Positions 20,285 to 27,910 of a stretch of 64,000 nt of DNA are shown in pieces. The notes under the pieces are model-generated. The model had not been told where the DNA came from. It searched no databases and was given only the letters and a program-made list of their open reading frames with translations. Numbering within the stretch: the first letter of the stretch is position 1; each line of letters starts with the position of its first letter. The position numbers and the translations under genes are program-made. This stretch comes from Dehalogenimonas lykanthroporepellens BL-DC-9 (GTDB lineage Bacteria; Chloroflexota; Dehalococcoidia; Dehalococcoidales; Dehalococcoidaceae): positions 682,001 to 746,000 of the forward strand of contig CP002084.1 of assembly GCA_000143165.1 (NCBI GenBank), read 5' to 3'.

Positions 20285-23200
20285 CTATACCGGATTCATA
20301 ATCGTGGCGACCATCTCCGAAAGCTCATCCAGGTAGAAATTCTTAACCATGATGCCTTTTTTCGGACAGGTAGCCATACATACCCCGCAACCGTGGCATT
20401 TAGCCGGATCCGCTTCGACGGTTTTTTTCAAACCACCTTTGAAATTGTACTCAAGCAATGAAATGGCATCATAAGGGCATGGGTCCACGCAGTAGGCACA
20501 CCCGTCACAGTTTTCATCCAGCACCTCCGAAACACAGGCTTCCAGTCTGATACTGTCCTTCGACAATATCGCCGCCGCCTTGGCCGCCGCGGCTCCTGCC
20601 TGGGCTATCGACTCCTCAGCCAGTTTTGGGCTATGTGCCAGCCCTGCCAGGAATACCCCTTCTACCGGAGAATCTACCGGGCGGAGTTTGATATGGGCCT
20701 CCATCAGGAAACCGTCATCGGAGAACGGGACCTTCATCAATTTGGCCAGTTTCTGGTCTTCCCCCGGAACCACGCCGGTTGACAGTACTACCAGATCGGC
20801 CGGAATATTAATTTTAGCTTTCAGAACCTGATCGATGACAGATACTTTCAGGCTATCCTTTTCAACAGCGACCTCCGGATTCTGTCCTTCTTCGTATCTG
20901 ATAAAACGAACACCTAGCTTTCGTGCCCGGCTGTATTCAGCCTCATGCAAACTGTAAGCCCGGATATCCCGGTACAGAATGAAGACATCGGTTTCCGGAT
21001 ACCTGGCCTTAAGTTTGATGCTGTTCTTGATCGCCTGTATACAACACAATCTGGAACAATAAGGATGTTTCTCATCACGTGAACCAACGCATTGCACCAT
21101 GACAATGGTTCTGGCCTGCACCCGGTTTTCGGATACGAGAGATTCCAGTTCCAGCTGAGTAACAACACGTTCATCCTTGCCGTACAGGTATTCTACCGGT
21201 CGGTATTCATTCGCTCCGGTGGCTACGATAACAGCGCCGACCTTGAGTTTGCCGGTCTGACCATCTTCAGTATATTCAATAACGAAATTACCGGCGGAAC
21301 CTTCGAAGGAAGTGACCTCGGTATTCAGATGCAGGGTAATTCCCGGATGGACCTTCACTCTTGCCATCAATTCATTCAGCTTGGTCTGGGGGTCCTCACC
21401 GGATCTACCGAATTTTACCCGCCGCAAGTTTCCGCCAAGCTCATCCGTTATTTCCATCAGATGGGTACCGAAACCGGCATCGGCCAGGTCGAGAGCCGCT
21501 GTCATTCCGGCCAGCCCGCCGCCGATTACCAGACCTTCGTTACAGACTGACATATTACCCGGATACAACGGTTTGAGATGCGACACTTTGACCACAGCCA
21601 GGCGAACGATGTCCTTGGCTTTACTGGTCGCCTCTTCGGGCTGGTTCATGTGCACCCAGGAGCACTGATTCCGGATATTGGCAATTTCCATCAGGTACGG
21701 GTTCAAACCGGCTTCTCGCATGGTGTCCTGAAACAAACCTTCATGGGTCCGCGGAGTACAGGCGGCAATTACTACCCGGTTCAACCCGTTATTGATTATA
21801 GCCTGCTTGATTTTCTCCCCGGCATCGGATGCGCAAGCAAAAAGGGTGTCATCGACAAACGCCACGTTTTCCAAATTCCTGGCGTCCTCTACAACGGTTG
21901 GAATGTCGACAACCGAAGATATATTCTTTCCGCAATGGCAGACAAAGACCCCGGTTCTGATTTCTTCCCCGATCGGTCTTTCTTCAGGATAAGTACGTTC
22001 TTTTACCAACTGTCCGCGTTCATCGGCCAGCAAGGCCAGAACACGCGAAGCCGCCGCCCCGGCCTGGACCACCGTGTCGGGAATATCTTTGGGTGATGTG
22101 AAAGTACCGACAGCATACACACCTTCGACATTGGTCGCTACCGGATCCATACCTTCTGTGGCACAGAAGCCGTCGGGGGTGGTCTTGACACCGAGCTTTC
22201 CGGCCAGTTCCTGTCCGGCTACCGACGGCCGCAAACCACAGGACAACATTACCATTTCAAAGGTCTCATCCATCATGCGGCCTTGTTCATCCTGATAGCG
22301 GACGATGATGTCGCTATTAGCCGGAATCTGTTTCAATGACGAAGGCTGGCAACGAACATATCTGACCCCGGCTTTTTTTGCTCTTTCATAATAAGACTCA
22401 AAACCTTTGCCGTAGGCTCTGATATCTATATAGAAGATGGTGACTTCAATTTCGGGGTGATGTTCTTTGAGTATCAGTGCCTCTTTGGTGGCGTACATAC
22501 AGCAAACGGCAGAACAAAAATCAGCCGATATTTCCCTGGACCCGACACACTGAATAAAGGCTACTTTCTTAGGTAACTGACCATTTGAAGGGCGAGCTAC
22601 CTTTCCGGCCGACGGGCCGGAAGCCGACAGCATACGCTCAAACTGCAGACTGGTCAATACGTCGGGATACCGGCCATATCCCAATTGAGGCTTTTCGTTA
22701 GCATCGAACAGATCATAGCCAGGTGCCATGACAACCGCACCGACATTTATCTCGATTTCTTCGTCCTGCTGGTCCAGCAGTACGGCATTGGCCTCGCAGA
22801 ACATTTCACAGGCGCGGCATCCTTTGCCTTTTTTGAAGAATATGCAGTTATCCTTGTCAATGACCGGCACGTTAGGCACAGCCTGCGAATAGAGGGTATA
22901 AATCGCCTTGCGCTTGGCCAAGCCTCGGTCAAATTCACTTTCGGTTTTTGCCGGACACTTTTCAATACAGACATTACAGCCGGTGCATTTGGATTCATCG
23001 ACACATCGGGCTTTCTTCTTAATTCTCACCTTGAAGTTGCCCGCTTTCCCTTCATAACTGATGAACTTGGAATTAGTGATAAGTTCAATATTCAGATGCC
23101 GGTCAATATTCACCAGCCTGGGTGATACGGTACACATGGCACAGTCGTTGGTGGGAAAAGTCTTGTCCAATTGAACCATTTTCCCGCCGATGGCGGGGGC

Positions 23201-23311
23201 TTCTTCCAGCAGATAAACCTTGATACCAGCTTCAGCCAGGTCGAGCGCAGTCTGCATGCCGCCGACGCCTCCACCGATAACCAAAGCCGCGCCAATCTTG
23301 TTTTCCCCCAT
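20285..23311 (-). CDS. hdrA: HdrA-type flavin electron-bifurcating subunit, 1,008-residue extended form
   Basis: Larger than methanogen HdrA (about 650). Order: an N-terminal FAD module with VIGGGVGG (11-18) and a ferredoxin-like CTGCNVCIEKCP; a middle HdrA domain (VCHCGKNI, about 455); a second thioredoxin-reductase-like FAD domain (VIGGGLAGM); and two C-terminal [4Fe-4S] motifs CDGCAYCVDPCP and CHGCGVCMATCP. HdrA splits hydrogenase electron pairs between ferredoxin and the HdrB site. The extra N-terminal module may give a second flavin or another electron entry point. Confidence 0.9.
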   Translation of the reverse strand: MGENKIGAALVIGGGVGGMQTALDLAEAGIKVYLLEEAPAIGGKMVQLDKTFPTNDCAMCTVSPRLVNIDRHLNIELITNSKFISYEGKAGNFKVRIKKKARCVDESKCTGCNVCIEKCPAKTESEFDRGLAKRKAIYTLYSQAVPNVPVIDKDNCIFFKKGKGCRACEMFCEANAVLLDQQDEEIEINVGAVVMAPGYDLFDANEKPQLGYGRYPDVLTSLQFERMLSASGPSAGKVARPSNGQLPKKVAFIQCVGSREISADFCSAVCCMYATKEALILKEHHPEIEVTIFYIDIRAYGKGFESYYERAKKAGVRYVRCQPSSLKQIPANSDIIVRYQDEQGRMMDETFEMVMLSCGLRPSVAGQELAGKLGVKTTPDGFCATEGMDPVATNVEGVYAVGTFTSPKDIPDTVVQAGAAASRVLALLADERGQLVKERTYPEERPIGEEIRTGVFVCHCGKNISSVVDIPTVVEDARNLENVAFVDDTLFACASDAGEKIKQAIINNGLNRVVIAACTPRTHEGLFQDTMREAGLNPYLMEIANIRNQCSWVHMNQPEEATSKAKDIVRLAVVKVSHLKPLYPGNMSVCNEGLVIGGGLAGMTAALDLADAGFGTHLMEITDELGGNLRRVKFGRSGEDPQTKLNELMARVKVHPGITLHLNTEVTSFEGSAGNFVIEYTEDGQTGKLKVGAVIVATGANEYRPVEYLYGKDERVVTQLELESLVSENRVQARTIVMVQCVGSRDEKHPYCSRLCCIQAIKNSIKLKARYPETDVFILYRDIRAYSLHEAEYSRARKLGVRFIRYEEGQNPEVAVEKDSLKVSVIDQVLKAKINIPADLVVLSTGVVPGEDQKLAKLMKVPFSDDGFLMEAHIKLRPVDSPVEGVFLAGLAHSPKLAEESIAQAGAAAAKAAAILSKDSIRLEACVSEVLDENCDGCAYCVDPCPYDAISLLEYNFKGGLKKTVEADPAKCHGCGVCMATCPKKGIMVKNFYLDELSEMVATIMNPV

Positions 23312-23314
23312 CTG

Positions 23315-24181
23315 CTACACCGCCCTCGTCAATACTTGTTCAGACTCAACAAAATGCTTGCCCAACATCAGATCCTTTTCTGGGACACCAATAGCCAGGG
23401 CCACCAACTCGGTAAAATAATATATGGGCAAATCGTATCGCACGCCCTTTTTCGCCAGGTCTTCCTGCCTGACGTCCAGGTTCAACTGACAAAAGGTGCA
23501 AGGCACCGCCACAGCGTTCGCCCCGACCGATCTGGCATCATTCAATATGCGGCTGGTCAAGTCAAGGACTATATCAGGCCTGGTGATCGACAGCGAGCCG
23601 CCACAGCACTCTACCTTGTGCGACCAATCGATTGTCTTTATGCCTACGGCGCTAAGGATTTTGTCCATGGTCATCGGGTATTCGGGGTTGTCCAGAAAAC
23701 CAGTCTCTTTATGAGGCCTGACCAGAAGACAACCATAGTAGCTGACAACCTTGAGATGCGATAGGTCCCTGACAACCAGTGATTTCAATTTTGCCAGATT
23801 GTCTTCCCGGGCGAGTATTTCCAGAGGATGAAATACGCCAATTTCTTTTTCAAATTTATGCTCAATGATTTCTTCAATTTCTTTTTTAACCCGACGGTCT
23901 TCGTCGTCTTCATACTGCGCTACCTTGAACCGGTTATAACAGGCGGTACAGGGCACCACGACTTCATCCAAACCCATTTTCTCTATTTCCGCCAGGTTTT
24001 TCAGCGGCAGAGTTTCCGCCAGGAGCACGGAAGAATTGTGGGCCAGAGTAGAGCCGCAACAAACCCATTTCTTAGGCTCTTCTAGCTCTATTTCCAATTT
24101 ATCGAATACCCGCATCAGGGACTGATGATATTCCCTACCGGTGGACCGCAGAGAGCAACTGTTGTAATAGGCGTATTTCAT
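23315..24181 (-). CDS. hdrB: heterodisulfide reductase subunit B-like
   Basis: 288 residues with two CCG domains: Cys (YNSCS), WVCCGS and CTACYNR in the first half; GCLL, ECCGGS and CTFCQLN in the second. In methanogens these hold two noncubane [4Fe-4S] clusters that cleave CoM-S-S-CoB. Bacteria lack those coenzymes, so the substrate here is another disulfide, a thiol/persulfide or an alternative acceptor. It overlaps hdrC by four bases. Confidence 0.9.
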   Translation of the reverse strand: MKYAYYNSCSLRSTGREYHQSLMRVFDKLEIELEEPKKWVCCGSTLAHNSSVLLAETLPLKNLAEIEKMGLDEVVVPCTACYNRFKVAQYEDDEDRRVKKEIEEIIEHKFEKEIGVFHPLEILAREDNLAKLKSLVVRDLSHLKVVSYYGCLLVRPHKETGFLDNPEYPMTMDKILSAVGIKTIDWSHKVECCGGSLSITRPDIVLDLTSRILNDARSVGANAVAVPCTFCQLNLDVRQEDLAKKGVRYDLPIYYFTELVALAIGVPEKDLMLGKHFVESEQVLTRAV

Positions 24182-24768
24182 GAACCGGCCAACTCCTGTT
24201 CCTTTTTGGCAACTCTTTGAAAGATCTTTTTCATCTCATCGGCATTCTGTGAATGCGGGATTACTTCCAGCTTGCCTTTTTTCAGCATTCTCAATCCCAG
24301 ACCGAAATCCCGCCCCAGCGTACCGGTCTTCAGGGACAGTAAACCTGCCACACCGGCTTCGTACATCATCCCGTACCGCTTAACCAGATTAAGGCCGGTG
24401 CGGTAAAACTCAGCCACTGCGGGTTCCCTGGGCTTGATGCCTTCCTTGATGGCGATATTGGCCAGCGCATCCATGACCATCAACAAACCGGTATCCTGAG
24501 GACATCTGCCGGTGCAGGTGCCACAGGCAACACACAGCCAATAGGTATTGGAATTGAGTACTATATCCTTCAGCCCCAGCCTGACGGCATGAATCACCTG
24601 GGTGGGTGTCATATCCATGTATTCATTGAGCGGGCATCCGGATGTGCATTTGCCGCATTGATAGCACATGTTGGCATCCACGCCGTGCATGGCTTTGATA
24701 TTGCCGGCAAGTTCGCTGATATGTCCGGGCAACAATTCGTATTCGAGAACGACTTGGGTTTCAGTCAT
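24178..24768 (-). CDS. hdrC: heterodisulfide reductase subunit C-like
   Basis: 196 residues from ATG 24768, chosen for the GAGGTG nine bases upstream; a longer frame from 24810 has no Shine-Dalgarno. Two classical [4Fe-4S] motifs: CYQCGKCTSGCP (Cys35-45) and CVACGTCTGRCP. It wires HdrA to HdrB. It is the first gene of the hdr-mvh operon. A weak promoter may lie within 24870-24910; nothing else is seen between it and elp3. Confidence 0.92.
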   Translation of the reverse strand: MTETQVVLEYELLPGHISELAGNIKAMHGVDANMCYQCGKCTSGCPLNEYMDMTPTQVIHAVRLGLKDIVLNSNTYWLCVACGTCTGRCPQDTGLLMVMDALANIAIKEGIKPREPAVAEFYRTGLNLVKRYGMMYEAGVAGLLSLKTGTLGRDFGLGLRMLKKGKLEVIPHSQNADEMKKIFQRVAKKEQELAGS

Positions 24769-24909
24769 ACCACAACACCTCAACCTCTGTCTTTGTAGTC
24801 CGCTTGCCATACGGTTGACGACAAAATTACCAACCTGCGGGTTTGAGCAGTAATTATTACCATCTGCCTCTGACAGGTAGTACTATATCCAAAGTACCAT
24901 GCCAAAATA

Positions 24910-26325
24910 TTAGCTTAATCGGCTGATTTTGTCAATCGTTTTAGTACCGGGGCGAAGGTTTTTGACCATATATGGATGACTCAGTAAATAACCATGGCTC
25001 TTATAATAATTCCTGACGCCGACCCCGGACAGCACTGCCATTCTGCTGACCCCGAATTCATCAACAGCAATTCTTTCAGCCTGGCTGATTAGGCGCCGGC
25101 CAAGACCCTGATGTTGAACCGAATCGGAAGCAGTCAGGCCGAATCCAACTTCAGGTCCATAGACGTGGAGTTCGCGAATCAAGCCCAGCGGACCGCCGTC
25201 CGGTGATAAAGGCGCCGGAATTGTTTCCTGGAAACGCAGTCGCAACAGCCCAAAAAGAGTCTCATTGTCGTCTTCCAGCGAAAGAAATACTTCATGACCC
25301 CCAGCGGCCTCATAATCCAGTCTCCGCAATTCCGGTGTCCCTATCGCCAGCTTACGGTTTGAACGATGTCCATATTCACGGCACCGAACGCATCGACATT
25401 CGGCCCCTTCATCTTCCAGCAGTTGTCTCACTTTATCCCGCAACGAGTTTTTCAGCCCGCCGTTTATATATTCAGCGGGGATATCCCGAAGCACCCGGGA
25501 AATCCTGACATATGGCGGAATCAGTTTTTTGATGTCCGCTATCAATCTCACCATCATGCCATCACTGTAAGGTCGGTACCGACCGGAACGATACCATTCA
25601 TCCAGTTCGGTACCTTCAACCACCATCGTTGGGTATAATTTAAGACCGTCCGGCCGGAAATCCGGGTTATCGAATATCATTTTGGTCAGCCTGAGATCGT
25701 TTTCCGTATTTGAGCCGGGGAGCCCGGGCATCCAGTGATAGTGCACCTTCAACCCCGCTGTCCGTAGTCGTCGAGTGGCCTCCACTACCGCTACCACATC
25801 ATGGCCGCGTTTCACCTGTTCGTACACACGGTCATCCGGCATCTGCACACCCAGTTCAACTCGGGTGGTGCCCCAGTTAATCATGCGGGCTATTTCAACC
25901 TGCCCGCAATAATCCGGCCGGGTCTCGATACACAAGCCAACGGCGCGATGTTCTGCCAGCTCATTATTTTGTTGCGCTTCTTCCAGACTTCCCGAAGAAG
26001 AGCCATTAAGAGCATCGTAGCAATCCTTGATATAGTCAGTCTGGACATCCGGCGGATTGGAAAGAAAGGTGCCGCCCATGATGATAAGCTCCACTTTGTC
26101 AGTTGGATGCCCCATATCTTCCAGGATTTTAAGTCTAAGTTTTACCTGTTCGACAGCATCATAATTCCTAGATGCTGCTCGCATGACCGCCGGTGAATGA
26201 GGGGTATAACTGCGCGGAATACCACTGAATTCAGGACAATAGACGCATTCACCGGGACAACCCGCCGGTGGAGTCATCACCGCCACGGGGGTGACTCCCG
26301 ATATGGTTCTGGTTTTCTTTTTCAT
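24910..26325 (-). CDS. elp3: Elongator-like tRNA uridine-34 modification enzyme (Elp3)
   Basis: 471 residues. N-terminal radical SAM domain with Cx3Cx2C (Cys23, 27, 30; CPGECVYC), MGGTFLSNPP and IETRPD; a Cys-rich segment CRCVRCREYG near the domain border; and a C-terminal GNAT acetyltransferase domain (GLGRRLISQAE, about 400). Elp3 uses acetyl-CoA and SAM to make 5-carboxymethyluridine at the tRNA wobble position. A Dehalococcoides mccartyi Elp3 has been studied structurally, so bacterial occurrence in this group is known. It is divergent from a Trm9-like methyltransferase 54 bases away. Confidence 0.93.
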   Translation of the reverse strand: MKKKTRTISGVTPVAVMTPPAGCPGECVYCPEFSGIPRSYTPHSPAVMRAASRNYDAVEQVKLRLKILEDMGHPTDKVELIIMGGTFLSNPPDVQTDYIKDCYDALNGSSSGSLEEAQQNNELAEHRAVGLCIETRPDYCGQVEIARMINWGTTRVELGVQMPDDRVYEQVKRGHDVVAVVEATRRLRTAGLKVHYHWMPGLPGSNTENDLRLTKMIFDNPDFRPDGLKLYPTMVVEGTELDEWYRSGRYRPYSDGMMVRLIADIKKLIPPYVRISRVLRDIPAEYINGGLKNSLRDKVRQLLEDEGAECRCVRCREYGHRSNRKLAIGTPELRRLDYEAAGGHEVFLSLEDDNETLFGLLRLRFQETIPAPLSPDGGPLGLIRELHVYGPEVGFGLTASDSVQHQGLGRRLISQAERIAVDEFGVSRMAVLSGVGVRNYYKSHGYLLSHPYMVKNLRPGTKTIDKISRLS

Positions 26326-26379
26326 GAATATGATGGTTTAATTATACATTAACTTATCAGGTGGCAGGAATTTATACCG

Positions 26380-27042
26380 ATGGCCCCACATAAACCAGAA
26401 GCCGAGTTCGACGATATCGCGCCCGCATGGTACGGTTTCCGGCACTATACCATCTTCCGTACTGAGCTTGAATCTCTATCCAGACACTGGCACTCCGGCC
26501 GCCTGCTCAACGCCGGTTGCGGCCACGGGGCTGATTTTCTCCCCTTCCGGCAGAATTTTGAGCTATTCGGCATCGACATATCCTCGGAAATGCTACGCTA
26601 TGCGGAAAAATTCAAAATCAAGCACCGTTTTGATGCTGTCTTGCGACAGGAGGACATGAGGTCCCTGGATTTCCCTGACAATTATTTCGATTTTGCCATC
26701 GCTGTGGCCAGCCTGCATCACCTGGACAGCCCGGAAAGCCGCCGTCAGGCCTTGGCAGAAATTCACCGCGTCGTCCGTCCCGACGGCGAAATTTTTCTGA
26801 CCGTGTGGAATGCCTGCCAGCCACGCTTCTGGTTCAGCCGACGTGATACGCGCATTCCCTGGAAAACCGGGGATAAAACTGTTTTTCGCTATTATCATTT
26901 GTTCACCTACCGAGAAATCGAACGTCTGGCAAAGGACGAAGGCTTTACTGTTATGTCATCCAGGCCGGAGGCCTTCTTCCGAGGTCCCCTGAAGTATTTT
27001 TCCCGAAATATCTGCCTTCACCTGCGAAATTCTGTCGTGTGA
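26380..27042 (+). CDS. Trm9/ALKBH8-like class I SAM methyltransferase
   Basis: 220 residues. It has FDDIAPAWYGFRHY at the start, the SAM loop NAGCGHGADF (44-53), ASLHHLDSPESRR and, after the core strands, IPWK (159-162) and RYYHLFTYREIERL (from 170). The last two match the C-terminal signature of eukaryotic Trm9, which methylates cm5U34 to mcm5U34 in tRNA. Divergent placement next to elp3, which makes cm5U, supports the same role. Generic SAM methyltransferases share the core, so the function is inferred from these motifs and the neighbour. AGGA lies ten bases before the ATG. Confidence 0.75.
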   Translation: MAPHKPEAEFDDIAPAWYGFRHYTIFRTELESLSRHWHSGRLLNAGCGHGADFLPFRQNFELFGIDISSEMLRYAEKFKIKHRFDAVLRQEDMRSLDFPDNYFDFAIAVASLHHLDSPESRRQALAEIHRVVRPDGEIFLTVWNACQPRFWFSRRDTRIPWKTGDKTVFRYYHLFTYREIERLAKDEGFTVMSSRPEAFFRGPLKYFSRNICLHLRNSVV

Positions 27043-27109: not shown

Positions 27110-27331
27110 ATGCTGGTAAACATAACCTGCCCTCAATGCAACACTAGCGGTGGTTTTTCCATCAGTGACGAACGATATATCGGCCCCTATCGTTGCTGGA
27201 AATGCCGCGCCGCCATGAAAATCCATTTGGAACGTAACAGGCTGGAAAGTTGTGAAATCATGAGCGAAGAGGAATTCACCCGGTTCGAGCAGGAAATGGA
27301 AATCCGCCGTAGAGCTCGCGGCGGCCGTTGA
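27110..27331 (+). CDS. small zinc-ribbon protein
   Basis: 73 residues with two CxxC knuckles (ITCPQC Cys7/Cys10; CWKC Cys29/Cys32) and a charged helical C-terminus rich in Glu and Arg. AAGGAG precedes the ATG. It probably binds zinc and perhaps nucleic acid or a protein partner. It follows the methyltransferase by 67 bases on the same strand and ends seven bases from the convergent rimI. Function unknown. Confidence 0.75.
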   Translation: MLVNITCPQCNTSGGFSISDERYIGPYRCWKCRAAMKIHLERNRLESCEIMSEEEFTRFEQEMEIRRRARGGR

Positions 27332-27337
27332 CCTGTC

Positions 27338-27910
27338 TTATTGGGTCACGCCGTGATCAATTGGTAACGGGATGAGGGTCATTATCAGAGCGTCTTCCCG
27401 GTTATCAGTGTAGTACGCCCGCCTGATGCCAGTTTCAACGAAGCCGCAAGCCGAATACAGCTTCTGGGCCCCATAATTACCGGCCCTGACCTCCAGAGTC
27501 ATGCAGTGTGACTGCCTCTTGGCCGCCTCCTCAATCAGTTCCCGAAGCATTAGCCGTCCCAGACCTTGCCGCCGGCAATCCTTCCTGACCGCCAGACCGA
27601 TAATATGGGCTTCACCAGCCATTATCCAGAACCCCCCGAAGGCAATGATTCGTCCTTCTTCCCTTTCGTGTGACGCCATCCAGCGTTTAACCTTGCCGGC
27701 GACACCGGTTCCACTGATTTCATCAATGGTCGAAGCATCCTCACCCGCGGACGGTCTTTCCACCATCACCAAATACGTGGCCAGTTGATTTTCCAGTTCC
27801 CGGTGGTAGTTCATAGGTGGCCACATCGTAGGAAAGGCTTCCCGGTCAATAGCCGTAACCTGAGCGACATCCAGTCGGCACATTGGCCGGATAACGATAT
27901 CGTTACTCAT
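27338..27910 (-). CDS. rimI: ribosomal protein S18-alanine N-acetyltransferase (RimI family)
   Basis: 190-residue GNAT protein. Acetyl-CoA loop RRQGLGRLMLRELIEEA, then LEVRAGNYGAQKLYSACGF and the ending typical of RimI (GIRRAYYTDNREDALIM). It would acetylate the N-terminus of ribosomal protein S18. About 40 residues longer than E. coli RimI because of an insert near residues 50-75. It is the third gene after ruvB and queH, with a TGATG overlap with queH. Confidence 0.85.
   Translation of the reverse strand: MSNDIVIRPMCRLDVAQVTAIDREAFPTMWPPMNYHRELENQLATYLVMVERPSAGEDASTIDEISGTGVAGKVKRWMASHEREEGRIIAFGGFWIMAGEAHIIGLAVRKDCRRQGLGRLMLRELIEEAAKRQSHCMTLEVRAGNYGAQKLYSACGFVETGIRRAYYTDNREDALIMTLIPLPIDHGVTQ

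Follow-up and report, generated by a model that had tools for sequence, protein, structure and literature searches.

One of the closest described counterparts of the gene pair analyzed here is the eukaryotic route, in which Elongator (Elp1-6), with Elp3 as its catalytic subunit, is followed by Trm9-Trm112 in yeast or by ALKBH8-TRMT112 in human. Eukaryotic Trm9 works with Trm112, as archaeal Trm9 reportedly does. To our knowledge, the Elongator subunits other than Elp3 have been reported absent from prokaryotes, and the archaeal systems of Haloferax volcanii and Sulfolobus consist of an Elp3 without those subunits plus a Trm9 orthologue. Clustering of elp3 and trm9 has been reported in Sulfolobus solfataricus (PMC5372719). 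Haloferax is among the Archaea that have Elp3 but no other Elongator subunit, mcm5U34 has been reported there, and archaeal Elp3 acts alone in vitro (PMC7663514). This type of pathway is already known, then, from eukaryotes and archaea.

Most bacteria use MnmE-MnmG (PMC7663514), which, together with MnmC, makes (c)mnm5U34. CmoM, present in some bacteria (E. coli among them), forms the methyl ester of cmo5U34. According to a 2020 review, Elp3 occurs in Dehalococcoides and direct evidence for cm5U derivatives there is lacking (PMC7663514); a 2017 review states that genes similar to those of Trm112-dependent methyltransferases are undetectable in bacterial genomes (PMC5372719). In our own literature search, which was not exhaustive, we found no report of a bacterial Trm9 or of bacterial mcm5U, and nothing tying Trm9 or mcm5U to Chloroflexota or to Dehalococcoides chemistry.

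We analyzed a stretch of 64,000 nucleotides from Dehalogenimonas lykanthroporepellens BL-DC-9 (the window), in which elp3 lies next to a gene for a Trm9-like protein. With the eukaryotic system this pair would share the Elp3 catalytic subunit and a Trm9-fold carboxyl methyltransferase that keeps the same substrate-site residues. In contrast to that system, the window Elp3 stands alone (471 aa) and lacks the long N-terminus, its gene and that of the methyltransferase are divergent neighbors, and the window genome has no PF03966 Trm112. Like the archaeal pair, it couples an Elp3 that would act without further Elongator subunits to a Trm9 relative; unlike it, it is bacterial and divergent, with 54 bp between the genes and Trm112 not found in the window genome, and its methyltransferase belongs to a subfamily of small Trm9 proteins to which, in our tree, DPANN proteins are most closely related. 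The predicted target (C5 of the wobble uridine) and decoding role are those of MnmE-MnmG, but the enzymes and the chemistry differ. As with CmoM, a wobble-uridine carboxylate would be esterified in a SAM-dependent reaction, in this case by a distinct methyltransferase family.

The divergent genes and Elp3

The window genome, a single contig of 1.69 Mb that is 99.99% complete, belongs to the same family as Dehalococcoides. The features of the locus, each with its basis in brackets, are:

24910..26325, minus strand: elp3, radical SAM/GNAT tRNA U34 carboxymethylating enzyme, 471 aa (TIGR01211, 5l7j, catalytic residues)
26326..26379, no strand: intergenic stretch of 54 bp between the divergent start codons (direct reading)
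26380..27042, plus strand: Trm9-like putative tRNA U34 carboxyl methyltransferase, 220 aa (sequence, structure model, reciprocal match, residues)
27110..27331, plus strand: zinc-knuckle protein, 73 aa, CPQC-x18-CWKC (sequence; membership of the system unproven)

The original prediction placed elp3 and the methyltransferase gene divergently and 54 bases apart, and the coordinates and strands of the two ORFs are exactly so. If the pair is transcribed from 26326..26379, this stretch would hold both promoters or a single shared one. On the methyltransferase side, the 73-aa gene is followed by a RimI-like acetyltransferase gene (27338-27910), and nearby lies a gene for QueH (epoxyqueuosine reductase, PF02677; 27910-28452, minus strand), which is also a wobble-base enzyme. 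On the other side, a ferredoxin-like Fe-S protein that reads like HdrC is encoded beside elp3 (24178-24810, minus strand), and the nearby ORFs at 23315-24181 and 20285-23311 (minus strand) read like the heterodisulfide-reductase subunits HdrB and HdrA.

By its sequence, the product of 24910-26325 is Elp3 and should be active. It matches TIGR01211 with 556 bits (cut-off 350) over residues 2-457, through both the radical SAM and the GNAT domains, and its best PDB match is DmcElp3 (5l7j, 655 bits). For a decade, Dehalococcoides Elp3 has been used as a structural model of Elongator. Pairwise alignment with this crystallized protein gave 292 identical positions out of 458 (64%), and the Fe-S cysteines 23/27/30 (CxxxCxxC) and the Zn cysteines 310/312/315 of DmcElp3 are kept in the window protein. 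The acetyl-CoA/active-site residues named for DmcElp3 (PMC6367351), K77, K193, E386, H388, R411, and Y441, are all identical as well. Two other genomes of the family, G008 and G010, encode an Elp3 that is 92-93% identical to the crystallized D. mccartyi enzyme.

The Trm9-like methyltransferase

Generic class I methyltransferase models cover mainly the core domain of the 220-aa protein (METHYLTRANSFERASE). Among PDB sequences, its top match was 5cm2_Z, the Yarrowia Trm9 from a Trm9-Trm112 complex (phmmer, 1.5e-15), and a profile built from 28 orthologues also placed 5cm2_Z first (7e-20). This match extends into the C-terminal part of the protein, whereas the next matches do not. The search held in the reverse direction: with fungal Trm9 as the query, the 220-aa protein was the sole match in the window genome (5.3e-16), and the elp3 neighbor was the best match in 25 of the 27 genomes that gave any match.

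The AlphaFold2 model of the protein (pLDDT 91.3) shows a class I fold in which two strands, 156-163 and 166-173, form a lid above the active site; these strands match the lid known from Trm9 (PMC5372719). Foldseek ranked 5cm2 first for this model. Superposition on 5cm2 with VIA-align gave an rmsd of 1.8 A over 173 residues at 28% identity, the lowest rmsd and the highest identity in the table; the Z score of 21.6 was tied with those of many methyltransferases, several of them from unrelated families.

Two motifs had been singled out in the original prediction as Trm9-type elements, IPWK (residues 159-162) and RYYHLF (residues 170-175). In the alignment to 5cm2_Z, these pair with VPWV and RYYHLY of the fungal enzyme, and the 28 orthologues mostly have [IV]PW[KR] and R[YF]Y[HY]LF. 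Among them R170, Y172, L174, and F175 do not vary at all, and P160 and W161 hardly do. The proposed kinship is borne out on both counts, since the motifs are conserved and the best match, by sequence and by Foldseek, was Trm9 and not an unrelated family. We conclude from these comparisons that the 220-aa methyltransferase is a Trm9 relative, that is, Trm9-like.

In yeast Trm9, the substitutions R29A, H115A, R241A, Y243A, and N271A result in loss of tRNA affinity and activity (PMC5372719). The equivalents of R29, H115, R241, and Y243 in the window protein are R21, H113, R170, and Y172, and these, along with N210, show no variation across the 28 rows of the orthologue alignment; position 171 (242 in yeast Trm9) varies between Y and F. 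Yeast numbering was placed using the letters of 5cm2 together with a yeast Trm9 sequence that has R at 29 and H at 115. Two alignments with 5cm2 both support H113, R170, and Y172, and one of them aligns R21. N271 is probably conserved too, as N210: the two residues stand opposite each other in one 5cm2 alignment, and a gap lies between them in the second. A few members of the class have V or H in place of Y243. Four additional methyltransferases from these genomes, when co-aligned, proved to lack this set of residues.

A maximum-likelihood tree separates a group made up of Trm9, its archaeal relatives, and the elp3-linked proteins from 11 other methyltransferases (support 95/89). The proteins closest to the Chloroflexota clade came from Aenigmatarchaeota and Woesearchaeota. 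Because several branches are long, the inner order of the tree is uncertain.

Trm112 and the zinc-knuckle protein

We found no match to Trm112 (PF03966) at E 0.01 in the window genome, and in the 11 genomes of its family the only matches were weak ones, inside frames of 272-823 residues that belong to other proteins. In contrast, 17 other genomes of the order, from several other families, have a short Trm112-like frame of 58-91 residues with a clear PF03966 match. The original claim of a pathway without Trm112 thus stands for the window genome and fails for those other families, which encode one. Since no clear Trm112 was found in the window family and one is present elsewhere in the order, Trm112 is no fixed companion of the Trm9-like enzyme. 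In four of the five order loci that we read, PF03966 proteins adjoin QueD/FolK-like genes; the elp3-methyltransferase pair does not adjoin them. Given the lack of PF03966 in the window genome, we do not file the system as a Trm9-Trm112 holoenzyme and file the enzyme as Trm9-like.

The 73-aa protein encoded at 27110-27331 (plus strand) has the pattern CPQC-x18-CWKC, in which CWKC is invariant, and its family was found in 44 of the 61 genomes of an order survey (the window's own and 60 relatives). We considered it as a candidate Trm112 and rejected this identification: it has no PF03966 or NCBIfam match, and its hhalign match to Trm112 is weak (probability 61%). Its predicted fold gave a weak LysW-like match (Foldseek, E 0.36), with Trm112 not among the 50 matches listed.

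A role as an accessory of the methyltransferase is possible. It would refine the two-step pathway into a three-protein system, in which the enzyme needs a zinc-knuckle partner, either Trm112 where present or the 73-aa protein as a stand-in. We judge this refinement rather unlikely. The 73-aa gene shares a contig with the methyltransferase gene in 30 of the 40 order genomes that hold both, and in all 30 it is downstream and co-directional; its CPxC...CxxC layout and the hhalign value also fit a zinc partner. However, many methyltransferase-bearing genomes have the gene at an unlinked site or yielded no copy of it, four genomes carry it without a methyltransferase, and the fold comparison points weakly to LysW. 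Trm112 occurs in 3 of 19 genomes with a linked 73-aa gene and in 9 of the 13 genomes lacking a linked copy (raw p 0.0035), but this contrast is not significant (p 0.19) once the window's family is counted only once.

Linkage, distribution, and the predicted pathway

Within the order survey, the methyltransferase is present in 50 of 61 genomes, and elp3 is present in all 50. Both genes lie on one contig in 49 genomes and are divergent in every one of them. Four order genomes have elp3 with no detected methyltransferase; in three of these elp3 is represented just by a fragment at the end of a contig, and in G013 a full-length elp3 lies on a 4.1-kb contig that does not carry its partner. A Trm9-led alignment scan of an independent contig collection returned 80 loci, 72 of which contain elp3, all in divergent orientation. 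Half of the eight loci without elp3 are cut by contig ends. Because the divergent pair recurs in 49/49 linked order cases and 72/80 independent loci, the pairing is not due to chance.

Three of the independent loci (L081, L106, and L119) have about 3 kb between elp3 and the methyltransferase gene and are still divergent; L081 and L106 are apparently one contig, and the ORFs in the gap of L081 are glycosyltransferase-like, repeat-protein-like, and response-regulator-like. The L096 locus has no elp3: rpoC is followed downstream by the methyltransferase gene, a zinc-knuckle gene, and a RimI-like gene, and this genome may have lost elp3 or moved it elsewhere.

The divergent pair was also found in one Candidatus Peribacteria genome, one unplaced bacterium, and one Woesearchaeote, and the best PDB match of the Peribacteria protein is again Trm9. 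The lid motif of two elp3-linked methyltransferases is altered relative to RYYH, to RYVH in the Peribacteria protein and to REVF in that of the unplaced bacterium, and their substrate or chemistry may therefore differ.

In a class survey of 147 genomes with completeness of at least 90%, Elp3 was detected in 28 and the methyltransferase in 28, and these are the same 28 genomes (p about 1e-30, with genomes counted as independent although they are related). MnmG was found in 30 of the 147, with zero overlap with the 28 Elp3 genomes (p 0.001 for exclusion, counted in the same way despite relatedness). Among the 41 nearest genomes, including the window's own, none matched the MnmG model (TIGR00136), whereas all nine bacterial controls did. 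We also did not find MnmG in the Peribacteria, unplaced-bacterium, and Woesearchaeote genomes that carry the pair, for which completeness is not given, nor in three archaeal genomes, likewise of unstated completeness, in which the linkage to elp3 is missing.

Matches to the MnmE model were present in nearly all genomes and were rejected as MnmE. We read them as Era/Der-type GTPases because they cover the GTPase domain alone and fall below the cut-off, and because archaeal controls gave the same result. At the thresholds used, about 89 of the 147 Dehalococcoidia genomes have neither MnmG nor Elp3 and so have no known means of modifying the wobble uridine at C5.

It could be argued that this relative of Trm9 has some other substrate, such as a small molecule, another wobble derivative (for example cmo5U, as for CmoM), or another tRNA position, and that it is linked to elp3 by coincidence or for reasons of regulation. 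Many enzymes share the class I methyltransferase fold, and fold alone leaves the substrate unfixed: METTL6, CmoM, and glycine N-methyltransferase had VIA-align scores like that of Trm9, and overall identity to Trm9 is around 30% (about 26-33%). On the other hand, Trm9 came first both by sequence and by Foldseek, the reciprocal test held, and the substrate-site residues of Trm9 are kept. The CmoM model (PRK11036) was not among the best 25 of the 26 NCBIfam matches to the 220-aa protein (E 0.001), and the gene occurs in exactly those genomes of the class survey that bear Elp3. Taken together, these results make a different substrate improbable.

A conserved chromosomal neighborhood with no functional coupling is very improbable: synteny can last by descent within one order, and the 73-aa gene, the RimI-like acetyltransferase gene, QueH, and RuvB are a part of the flank that the window's genus has in common with Dehalococcoides, but the pair stays while its outer neighbors vary between families, its presence is all-or-none across 147 genomes, and it recurs in the Peribacteria, the unplaced bacterium, and the Woesearchaeote.

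We favor a bacterial cm5U-to-mcm5U pathway because of the reciprocal Trm9 match, the class-wide co-occurrence with Elp3 (28/28), and the absence of MnmG. Elp3, acting alone without the other Elongator subunits, would use acetyl-CoA and a SAM-derived radical to carboxymethylate U34 at C5, giving cm5U. The Trm9-like protein would then methylate the carboxylate with SAM as the donor, and the resulting ester would be mcm5U34. The step order, the tRNAs targeted, and independence from Trm112 are inferred. In the Dehalococcoidia lineage, the pair would replace the MnmE-MnmG route. The two-enzyme mcm5U pathway originally proposed is in this way supported, with its chemistry inferred, and we consider it highly likely that the pair constitutes such a two-step cm5U34-to-mcm5U34 pathway in place of MnmEG. 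Dehalococcoidia that have the pair very probably make mcm5U. For a broader proposal, we see the chances as even: several distant bacterial lineages would have a full Elp3-Trm9 pathway to mcm5U34 that replaces MnmEG, with a Trm9 that works without Trm112 or with an unrelated 73-residue zinc-knuckle stand-in.

What is new here is the bacterial version: elp3 and trm9 as a compact divergent pair with perfect co-occurrence in the class survey, the exclusion of MnmG, and a family without recognizable Trm112. The second enzyme, missing until now, is encoded 54 bases from elp3 in the window genome and beside elp3 throughout the lineage. The finding predicts mcm5U, possibly mcm5s2U, in bacterial tRNA, and the pair suggests a wholesale replacement of MnmEG by a route of the eukaryotic/archaeal type. 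It also provides a small enzyme for studying why Trm112 is required by eukaryotic Trm9.
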